Positions 24,779 to 30,081 of a stretch of DNA of 64,000 nucleotides are shown here, piece after piece. Made by a program: the position numbers and the translations under genes. The DNA lies in contig CADACS010000001.1 in assembly GCA_902786505.1 (NCBI GenBank), forward strand, positions 62,001-126,000, written 5' to 3'. This DNA is from an uncultured Planctomycetota bacterium (GTDB lineage Bacteria; Planctomycetota; Planctomycetia; Pirellulales; Thermoguttaceae). The notes beneath the pieces were generated by a model. That model was not told the DNA's origin and made no database searches. It was given only the letters and a program-made list of their open reading frames with translations. How positions within the stretch are numbered: the first letter of the stretch is position 1; each line of letters opens with the position of its first letter.

Positions 24779-25516
24779 TCATTTAACGAAATAGGATCTA
24801 TAGACGGGCAGCTCGTTGAGCCGCGTTCTTCTTTCGAAGTGGGTTCGGAAATCGAGGTCGCCGGAAGAAGGCCGTTCCGGAACGGAATACGGCCCGGAGA
24901 GGTTCGTCGACAGCTTAATGATCTCGACGCCCGAATCGAAGTACTCTTTGACGTCGGTCCAGAAGTGCAGTATTCCGCCGGGCGCGAGCCGCGCTTCGAT
25001 CATGCTAACGACGTCGGGCCGAACGATTCGGCGTTTGCGATGCGCTTTTTTCCACCACGGGTCGGGGAAGTAGATATGCGCGGCGACGAGCGATTCGAGC
25101 GGTACGAGCTCGCGGAGTACGCGCGCGGCGTCGGCGGCCATCATAACGCCGTTGGGCGTGTTCTGTTTCGCGAGCTTCGACGCGGACATGAGCGCATAGC
25201 GGTACGCGATTTCCACGCCGAGAATATTGCGGTCGGGCCGCGCTTTTGCGTAACTTGAAATAAAGAGCCCTTTGCCGGACCCAATTTCAAATTCCATTGG
25301 GGCGACGCGGCCAAAGATCCGTTCGGAGAACTGCTCGGCCGTCATGCCGGACAGAGACGCGTACGTTACGCGCTTGACCTTATCGGCGCCGTCGCCCGGC
25401 TGCGCGAGCGCCGCCGTCTCCGGATCGACCTGCGCCATGAATTCGAATTCCATCGGGATGAAATAGTGGGAGACGTCCCGATTACCTTGAATTTTGGGCA
25501 ACGATCTGCGCGGCAT
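24779..25516 (-). CDS. trmB: tRNA (guanine-N7-)-methyltransferase
   Basis: TrmB methylates N7 of G46 in the tRNA variable loop. The 245-aa protein has the motif EIGSGKGLFI (SAM-binding) near residue 75 and the TrmB signature HIYFPDPWWKKAHRKRRI near residue 150. The C-terminus carries the conserved TxFExR-like block, here TRLNELPVYRSYF. The N-terminal 45 residues (MPRRSLPKIQGNRDVSHY) are charged and contain an extra segment between the start and the SAM domain. It is 13 bases downstream of fabZ and shares its transcript. A terminator follows. Confidence 0.93.
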   Translation of the reverse strand: MPRRSLPKIQGNRDVSHYFIPMEFEFMAQVDPETAALAQPGDGADKVKRVTYASLSGMTAEQFSERIFGRVAPMEFEIGSGKGLFISSYAKARPDRNILGVEIAYRYALMSASKLAKQNTPNGVMMAADAARVLRELVPLESLVAAHIYFPDPWWKKAHRKRRIVRPDVVSMIEARLAPGGILHFWTDVKEYFDSGVEIIKLSTNLSGPYSVPERPSSGDLDFRTHFERRTRLNELPVYRSYFVK

Positions 25517-25529
25517 GAAATACGCTCCC

Positions 25530-26063
25530 TTAACGTTCCGTCGACTGCGCTTTCGCCTGTTCGGCGGCGGCCAGATGCTGAAGCGGGAGCGGCGAGCCTT
25601 TGATGATCCCTTCGCAGACGATCTCGTCGTTAACGACGCACATAAATCGCGCCGTAAAGATAATCTTGCGCCATTTGAGCGCTTCGCACTGAACGACGAC
25701 GCGGTCGCCCGGCCGGACCATGCCGCGGAACTTCACTTCTTCGAGGCCCGCGAATCCCATGACCGCGTTCTCGAACATCTGATGCTTCGTCGTAAAGTAG
25801 CTCGCAAGCTGCGCCGCGACTTCGACGAGAACGACGCCGGGCGTGAGCGGGAAATCCGGCATGTGCCCGCGAACCCAGAATTCGTTTTCCGTCATGTCTT
25901 TGTAGCCGACGCACTTCAGCGTGTCGAAATCGTCGTACACGACGGCCGTCAGCTGTTCCATTTCGTAACGCTGGCTGTTATATTTGCGAATCTCTTCTAA
26001 CGTGGCGACCGGACGGTCGAGGTCGTACAACGACGGATCGACGAGCAAGGGCTTTTTGGCCAT
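25530..26063 (-). CDS. fabZ: 3-hydroxyacyl-ACP dehydratase FabZ-like protein
   Basis: FabZ dehydrates 3-hydroxyacyl-ACP in the fatty acid elongation cycle. The 177-aa product, slightly longer than usual (about 150), has the hot-dog active-site block WVRGHMPDFPLTPGVVLVEVAAQL, with the catalytic His in GHMPDFP and the Glu in VEVAAQ. FKPGDRV-type strand is present as MVRPGDRVVV. The His-Pro spacing varies from the canonical HFP. The ATG at 26063 has GGAGGAG upstream, a strong ribosome site. It lies upstream of trmB in one operon, away from the acpP-fabF module at 39 kb. Confidence 0.85.
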   Translation of the reverse strand: MAKKPLLVDPSLYDLDRPVATLEEIRKYNSQRYEMEQLTAVVYDDFDTLKCVGYKDMTENEFWVRGHMPDFPLTPGVVLVEVAAQLASYFTTKHQMFENAVMGFAGLEEVKFRGMVRPGDRVVVQCEALKWRKIIFTARFMCVVNDEIVCEGIIKGSPLPLQHLAAAEQAKAQSTER

Positions 26064-26104: not shown

Positions 26105-26145
26105 AAAAAAAAACGCGATTGAGGCGACGAAACGCCTAATCGCGC
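26105..26145 (-). terminator. Rho-independent terminator of the small basic protein gene
   Basis: A hairpin with arms around 26113-26125 and 26132-26143 (CGCGATTGAGGCG against CGCCTAATCGCG, one bulge). An A-run at 26105-26113 gives a U-tract in the minus-strand transcript. It lies 40 bases beyond the stop at 26184. Confidence 0.75.
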
Positions 26146-26183
26146 TTTTGTATAATATGGACGCTCTAGCGAACGAAACGCTA

Positions 26184-26282
26184 TCAGGTCTTGACGATTC
26201 GGCGCTTGGCGCGACGCGATTTCGCGTTCGCGGGACGTTTGCCGTGGTTCGCCTTCTTGACGACTCTACCAGGTTTAGCCAT
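26184..26282 (-). CDS. 32-aa very basic protein, unrecognised
   Basis: The reading frame from ATG 26282 to TGA 26184 encodes MAKPGRVVKKANHGKRPANA followed by KSRRAKRRIVKT, 32 residues, 14 of them Lys or Arg and one His. The ribosome site AAAGGAG is 6 bases upstream and near perfect. A promoter-like TATAAT and a terminator bracket it. The protein is unlikely to form a compact fold alone. Its length, charge and Gly/Pro-containing start are like tiny ribosomal proteins (for example bTHX or bL36-sized proteins), but I do not recognise the family. Strong signals argue that it is a real and highly expressed gene. Flanks are fabZ and the uracil-DNA glycosylase. Confidence 0.7.
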   Translation of the reverse strand: MAKPGRVVKKANHGKRPANAKSRRAKRRIVKT

Positions 26283-26482
26283 TTTATACTCCTTTAAGTA
26301 ACTTAAGCTCAAGCCGCTTCCCGTACGCGTCGGCGACTCGAACCGCCGGGAACCGAACGACTCCCGGACAAAATTTTCGATATATCGAATCTTTCAAAAA
26401 CGGCGGCCCGCATTGAAAGGAAATCGCGGCTCCGGCGCGGCGCGCCAGAGACGGCGCTATCGCGCGTCAAATTGCAAGCGGT

Positions 26483-26510
26483 ATTATAACGAAGAAATCT
26501 CTTTTGAAAA
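26483..26510 (-). promoter_or_regulatory. Candidate promoter of the 32-aa basic protein gene
   Basis: TTTTCA (26510-26505), 16-base spacer, TATAAT (26488-26483) on the minus strand. The leader would be about 195 bases. It contains a 14-bp perfect palindrome, TTCGATATATCGAA (26376-26389), of unknown role. No gene occupies 26283-26572. Confidence 0.5.
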
Positions 26511-28869: not shown

Positions 28870-30081
28870 ATGAAGAAGGCGAAAGATCTCGGAGCGGTCT
28901 CTCGGGACCGACGTTCCCTTTTCCTCTTGGGCGCTGCGTTCGCCGCGTTCTGTTTATCGCTCGCGGTCGGTTGCGCTACGGTACGACCGAATACGCCCAC
29001 CCAGTTTGAATGCCGATCGCAGGATTGCCATTATCATTATGAGATTGGCAGCGACGGAACTATTACGAGCAGCGACGCCAGCGACGGCGTGAAACCGGCG
29101 ACGCTCAATCCGGACGGCACGTGGGGGCCGCAGACGCCCGATGCGGCCGTGCCCGCGGAGACCGCCGCTAAGGTCGATCAAACGGCGCAAGACGCGCACA
29201 ACGTCGCGCGCGCCGAGACTCCGGCCGAGCAGTTCCGTCAAGGCGAGACGGCGGTTACGCCCCTTGGCGACTGCGCCGCGCCGAACGAAAAAGTTAAGGT
29301 AGACGTATGCGCCGCCGACAGTGTGTCGTCGGATCCCGCCGCGAATAAGCCGGAACTCAATCCGTCGACCAGTCAGGGCGATCCGCTGCCCACGCAGGCC
29401 GCGCCCGCCGCGACCGAGGCCGCTCCCGCCGCGACCGAGGCCGCTCCCGCCGACGCGGCTCCTGCGCCTGCCGCGACCGAGGCCGCTCCCGCCGACGCCG
29501 CTCCGGCTCCTGCCGCGACCGAGGCCGCTCCTGCCGAATCCGCGCCGGCTCCTGTTGCGACCGAGGCCGCTCCCGCCGAATCTGCGCCGAATACCGGCAT
29601 GGCCGGCGATTCGACCGTCGCCGCGGAAGCGCAGAACGACGCGAACGCGCAGCAGTCGTTCCCGCCCGCCGAGAACAACGGCGTTATTTATCCTGACGCC
29701 GGCGCCTCCGACGCAAATCCGTCCGACGCCGAAAAGTCCGACGACGACCGTTTCGTTAACTACAATCCCCGCAACGGCGCGCGGCTGACCGGCGTTTCCC
29801 AGAAGAAAGGCCGAACGGTCCAGTTCAAGAATTCGGTAACGACCGCGAAAAGCTCCCCTGTGAACGGAAAACCGGAACTCGTTCCGACGACCGGCGCCGT
29901 CTACTATGCGTCGCGGCCTCTTCCGGCTCAGGCGCCCGCCCCGAGATACGCCGGCCCCGGCAAGCCCGCCGCCGCGCGCACGCTCAATGAAGCGCGCATG
30001 ACCGCGCCTCAGAGCGGCGTTAAGAGCGACCGCAATCCGCAGGGACTGCCCGTTCTGGACGCGAGCCAAGGGCGCAGATAA
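28870..30081 (+). CDS. Repeat-rich lipoprotein
   Basis: The 403-aa product has a lipoprotein signal (RRSLFLLGAAFAAFCLSLAVGC, Cys at about residue 35). The next region contains a Cys-His pair in ECRSQDCHYHYEI. A low-complexity central domain (about residues 177-240) is made of tandem 14-residue repeats rich in Ala, Pro, Thr and Glu (AATEAAPADAAPAP-type units). The C-terminal part is positively charged and includes NPRNGARLTG and Pro-rich stretches. Such repeats are typical of surface-exposed stalks or spacers that hold a domain away from the membrane. There is no recognisable enzyme domain. GAGGA is about 12 bases upstream of the ATG. A strong terminator follows. Confidence 0.75.
   Translation: MKKAKDLGAVSRDRRSLFLLGAAFAAFCLSLAVGCATVRPNTPTQFECRSQDCHYHYEIGSDGTITSSDASDGVKPATLNPDGTWGPQTPDAAVPAETAAKVDQTAQDAHNVARAETPAEQFRQGETAVTPLGDCAAPNEKVKVDVCAADSVSSDPAANKPELNPSTSQGDPLPTQAAPAATEAAPAATEAAPADAAPAPAATEAAPADAAPAPAATEAAPAESAPAPVATEAAPAESAPNTGMAGDSTVAAEAQNDANAQQSFPPAENNGVIYPDAGASDANPSDAEKSDDDRFVNYNPRNGARLTGVSQKKGRTVQFKNSVTTAKSSPVNGKPELVPTTGAVYYASRPLPAQAPAPRYAGPGKPAAARTLNEARMTAPQSGVKSDRNPQGLPVLDASQGRR
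29397..29590 (+). repeat. Tandem 42-bp repeat within lipoprotein gene
   Basis: The core unit is about 42 bases (GCGACCGAGGCCGCTCC plus variable half), encoding AATEAAPADAAPAP-type 14-mers. About four full units plus short 21-base half-units are visible, with third-base differences between copies, so some divergence has occurred. Such arrays expand or contract by slippage and recombination, and a MAG assembly may have collapsed it. Confidence 0.85.

Follow-up and report, generated by a model that had tools for sequence, protein, structure and literature searches.

Does the very basic open reading frame of 32 codons at positions 26184-26282 of the analysed stretch of planctomycete DNA (64,000 nucleotides, hereafter the window) encode a protein, and if so, of what kind? 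An initial sequence-only reading gave these coordinates correctly and left the strand unstated; the frame lies on the minus strand, and the plus strand over the same positions translates into an unrelated peptide. Read from 26282 to 26184, the translation is MAKPGRVVKKANHGKRPANAKSRRAKRRIVKT, in which 13 of the 32 residues (41%; seven Lys and six Arg) are Lys or Arg, so that the earlier description, nearly half, was right about a very basic product and slightly generous about its degree. Among the 242 ATG-started frames of 20-60 amino acids in the window, it alone combines at least 40% Lys plus Arg with a Shine-Dalgarno core. The frame and its surroundings carry the following features.

26184-26282, minus strand: the bL37 gene, 32 codons and TGA (ATG at 26282, TGA at 26184)
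26283-26295, minus strand: ribosome site read from the sequence, with the Shine-Dalgarno AAAGGAG at 26289-26295 and the 6-nt spacer TATAAA at 26283-26288
26483-26510, minus strand: sigma-70-like promoter TTTTCA-16-TATAAT, upstream of the bL37 ATG
26105-26149, minus strand: intrinsic-terminator-like hairpin and U tract, downstream of the bL37 stop
25530-26063, minus strand: FabA/FabZ-like dehydratase gene, directly downstream of bL37 (Pfam PF07977, E 3.7e-20)
24779-25516, minus strand: TrmB-like methyltransferase gene (Pfam PF02390, E 1.2e-32)

The expression signals were compared with those of relatives, the nearest named ones being two gut planctomycetes (loci L076 and L100) that are labelled Thermoguttaceae, a family of Pirellulales. 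The AAAGGAG element ends 6 nt before the ATG, exactly as the sequence-only reading had it, and a ribosome site also precedes the ATG in L076 and L100 (AAGGAG) and in L057 (AGGAG). The promoter-like TATAAT of that reading is present as well, with TTTTCA 16 nt before it, but it lies about 200 bases from the ATG. The pair of hexamers matches the consensus at 10 of 12 positions, and shuffles of the 901-base region hold a mean of 0.4 such sites. By eye, this layout recurs in three of the six relatives compared, namely the near-identical pair L076 and L100 and, with TTTTCC, L057; it is not evident in L120, L058 and L019. The long hairpin after the stop codon (-23.4 kcal/mol, z -4.75, with none of 200 shuffles equally stable) agrees with the terminator claimed earlier, though it is absent from the output of a simple terminator scan. 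A downstream hairpin is seen by eye in two of the six relatives, L076 and L100, at the same place and with a different sequence, and none is evident downstream of bL37 in L057.

The ratio pN/pS ranges from 0.06 to 0.65 and stays below 1 against all 53 other loci of 32 codons that were compared, with synonymous sites near saturation in the distant ones; for the nearest relatives it is 0.06 and 0.17. Against the near relative L057 there are 18 synonymous and three non-synonymous differences, against L076 ten and five. Selection on the gene is purifying. The FabZ-like gene stands directly 3' of bL37 and in the same orientation at all 15 loci compared from the window's own order besides the window itself, at nine of 16 named planctomycete loci, at none of the 24 loci of one further family (f3) and at none of the nine from elsewhere in the phylum. 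The TrmB-like gene is the next neighbour in many relatives, and UDG, CsrA, FabZ-like and TrmB-like neighbours are also found in the L076/L100 region. Because frame, start and stop are kept in relatives with a synonymous excess, and because the downstream gene is conserved, the frame at 26184-26282 is a real, conserved protein-coding gene. Conservation and a synonymous excess, whose absence the earlier reader had regarded as telling against the gene, were thus both found. That the frame is spurious is scarcely credible, short as it is and readily as basic frames arise in GC-rich DNA, given the database match and the distribution described below, the synonymous bias, the FabZ-like synteny and the upstream signals in relatives; we rejected this reading on the conservation with its synonymous bias. 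For annotators of the window, this means calling a gene of 32 codons that length limits would otherwise drop. Elsewhere in the window, a 403-residue frame (28870-30081, plus strand) has a lipoprotein-like start and long repeats of the PAPAATEAAPA type.

The identity of the product follows from a curated family. No Pfam family matches the 32-residue peptide in a Pfam search, and the NCBIfam model NF047429.1 (ribo_Plancto_bL37, "50S ribosomal protein bL37", a planctomycete equivalog of release 20.0) matches it over positions 1-32 of 32 at 57.9 bits, the cut-off being 40. This full-length match above the cut-off makes it a known kind of protein; in fact, since the family is already named and curated, the find itself is known and ordinary, and the window protein is an ordinary member with no notable difference from the model. 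The match, the conservation and the synonymous bias together bear out the gene of 32 codons that the sequence-only reading had proposed, and the planctomycete bL37 model lends support to its suggestion of a tiny ribosome-associated protein; its remark that the kind was not recognisable does not stand, for NF047429 names exactly this protein. The same reading had offered a nucleoid-associated protein, to which no match in the PDB, NCBIfam or Pfam points. More broadly, the product might be a free basic peptide of that sort, binding DNA or RNA, or an antimicrobial-like one. The 41% Lys/Arg content would suit such a peptide, and bL37 of C. acnes inhibits the growth of Gram-positive bacteria in a disk assay, according to the accessible text of PMC10085706. 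Yet the conserved core is an uncharged loop motif, which goes beyond charge alone, and a secretion signal is not seen in the 32 residues. We consider this explanation very improbable, and a nucleoid protein was rejected on the missing database matches and the motif-centred conservation.

The protein is widespread among the window's relatives. It was found in 97 of 198 genomes sampled from the window's class (96 of them over the NF047429 cut-off), a count that may miss divergent copies, and, among the matches listed, in 48 of 49 sampled genomes of the window's order, the listed miss being G419. Across the phylum, the NCBIfam model matches 73 of 294 sampled genomes and profile A1, built from 26 planctomycete sequences of which eight were gathered with the pattern KANHGKRP, matches 53 of 199; none of the 14 control genomes gave a bL37 match. 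A second search of 20 of the 101 matchless class genomes, made with profile A1 and a larger number of scored candidates, gave a match at E <=1 in 18; we read these as chance matches, the best (E 0.046) containing an internal stop. Among the genomes listed, those lacking bL37 belong to four families (f102-f105), apart from one genome of the window's own order, and no family there also shows bL37, with 81 matchless genomes lying outside those listed; the absence looks like lineage-wise loss or strong divergence. A scan for KANHGKRP gave, among the matches listed, 80 loci: 16 from planctomycetes, 63 from actinobacteria as judged from record names, and one (L065) on a contig titled Acidobacteria. 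The bL37 peptide of the latter is identical to that of an Acidimicrobiaceae locus (L066), and the contig is therefore probably misbinned.

How, then, does the planctomycete protein relate to the bL37 that has been described in actinobacteria, according to the accessible text of PMC5876184, PMC10085706 and PMC10618245? Like the actinobacterial protein (NF047428; solved in M. smegmatis, M. tuberculosis and C. acnes), it is tiny and very basic and has the core K-A-N-H-G-K-R-P, or more generally K-A-N-H-G-x-R-P, which is found in bL37 at large; M-[AS]-K opens the sequence of many members in both groups. In the planctomycete alignment, A11, N12, H13, G14, R16 and P17 are invariant in all 26 rows, a conservation that is partly built in because eight rows were gathered with the motif. 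The actinobacterial set behind profile A2 was gathered with KANHGKRP as well, and the profile search of the PDB, the profile-profile comparison and the shuffle tests are therefore inflated. With this in mind, profile A1 retrieved seven PDB sequences at E <=10: the ciliate mitoribosomal protein mL102 discussed below, five bL37 chains (M. tuberculosis at E 0.0011, the others at 0.0074, 0.038, 0.6 and 2.8; one of the five is named only 'peptide') and an unrelated phospholipase A2 in which ANHGKRP occurs by chance (E 0.53). The profile-profile comparison of the planctomycete and actinobacterial sets gave 96.9% over 17 columns, and the actinobacterial peptide scored 17.4 bits with profile A1 against 14.8 for the best of 20,000 shuffles, a small margin. 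The window sequence alone gave only weak PDB hits, at E 0.056 and 0.57, the latter being a solved bL37.

The two groups also differ. Actinobacterial bL37 has a basic helical stretch before the motif and ends soon after it; according to the accessible text of PMC5876184, an N-terminal helix of about 13 residues is followed by a C-terminal loop. The N-terminal part of the planctomycete protein is about five residues shorter, and some 15 basic residues come after the motif, where a low-confidence AlphaFold model of the window peptide (pLDDT 74.7, pTM 0.30) predicts a helix at residues 20-29, besides one at 12-15. The case for homology between the groups comes from a common stretch of some 10-17 residues. 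These observations leave room for a protein that is ribosomal and yet no orthologue of actinobacterial bL37, ANHGKRP having arisen twice and the planctomycete protein sitting elsewhere on the large subunit. The shortness of the common stretch would agree with this, as would a helix layout that appears inverted when the low-confidence model is set beside the accessible text of PMC5876184, the chance occurrence of ANHGKRP in an unrelated protein, and the score with the mycobacterial model NF047428, which stays at 15.9 bits against a cut-off of 30 and covers residues 8-17 only. On the other hand, both groups share the whole order of M-[AS]-K, a few residues and then K-A-N-H-G-K-R-P within a tiny basic frame that has its own ribosome site, bL37 chains are found among just seven PDB sequences, and NCBI curators named both models bL37. 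A separate origin is therefore unlikely in our view. Altogether, we read the frame as planctomycete bL37, a structural 50S-subunit protein of 32 residues that most likely binds a pocket of H39-H42, H72 and H89 with 5S rRNA, at a probability of roughly 0.88. A literature search, with subscription papers mostly outside it, found no paper joining bL37 and planctomycetes, and the description of the planctomycete protein may be confined to the family database.

The proposed place in the ribosome is modelled on the structures published for M. smegmatis and C. acnes, from which the pocket, the loop contacts and the effect on H89 are all inferred. As the accessible text of PMC5876184 and PMC10085706 describes it, the actinobacterial pocket is formed by H39, H40, the H41/H42 joint, H72 and H89 under the tip of 5S rRNA, and the bL37 N-terminus contacts H89. 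By homology, planctomycete bL37 would occupy the pocket that 23S helices H39-H42, H72 and H89 form with the adjacent 5S rRNA; its invariant A-N-H-G-x-R-P loop would insert into the rRNA, its basic flanks would neutralise phosphates, and the protein could in this way brace H89 beside the peptidyl transferase centre. More widely, bL37, beside that centre, is a lineage-specific part of the ribosome.

The window's relatives also bear on the relation of bL37 to uL30. None of 198 genomes from the phylum was matched by the bacterial uL30 model, which did match ten of 14 controls, and a uL30 search of 30 planctomycete genomes, chosen with and without bL37, was likewise empty. At eight of eight loci (L198-L205), the frame before uL15, which we take to be uS5 from its sequence, lies flush against uL15, with no space for uL30 between them. 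Planctomycetes of the window's class thus have bL37 without uL30. Absence of L30 from the wider group containing planctomycetes had already been published (PMC7203096, accessible text). In Borreliella, the bL37 pocket is taken up by a uL30 that is extended at its N-terminus, and it was proposed from that ribosome that bL37 and a shorter uL30 arose from a longer uL30 (PMC10618245, accessible text). This extension shares the pocket with bL37 but is part of uL30, and the likeness is one of published position. The presence of bL37 without uL30 means that the two proteins are not tied together, which does not disprove an origin of bL37 from uL30.

The strongest match of profile A1 in the PDB lies outside bacteria. 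It is residues 62-87 of mL102 from the ciliate mitoribosome, RNARPPKKANHGARPCSSVMRRLKKK (chain AQ of 6z1p, presumably the entry of the paper that describes this protein), which show the planctomycete bL37 layout and are found more strongly (E 8.4e-6) than the solved actinobacterial bL37 (E 0.0011). With the same profile, the real stretch scores 31.4 bits and the best of 19,999 scored shuffles 15.4. The accessible text of PMC7326499 describes mL102 as newly identified and does not mention bL37, and the region it gives for mL102 fits the bL37 pocket; no paper linking mL102 with bL37 was found among the matches listed in a literature search. On its sequence, mL102 is a possible unrecognised homologue of bL37. 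A wider scenario is more tentative, and we would not favour it at present: bL37 would be older and more widely spread than actinobacteria, planctomycetes would carry it with the same rRNA-binding loop, with the basic helix moved across the loop and no uL30, mL102 would be a homologue of planctomycete layout between the central protuberance and the L7/L12 stalk, and bL37 need not derive from a longer uL30. Both the occurrence of bL37 in planctomycetes devoid of uL30 and its possible relative in mitochondria are relevant to the origin of such extra ribosomal proteins. In the alignment, R-x-x-KKANHGARP-x-x-S-x-x-RR-x-KKK of mL102 falls on positions 3-28 of planctomycete bL37 and, unlike the latter, belongs to a protein of 109 residues.
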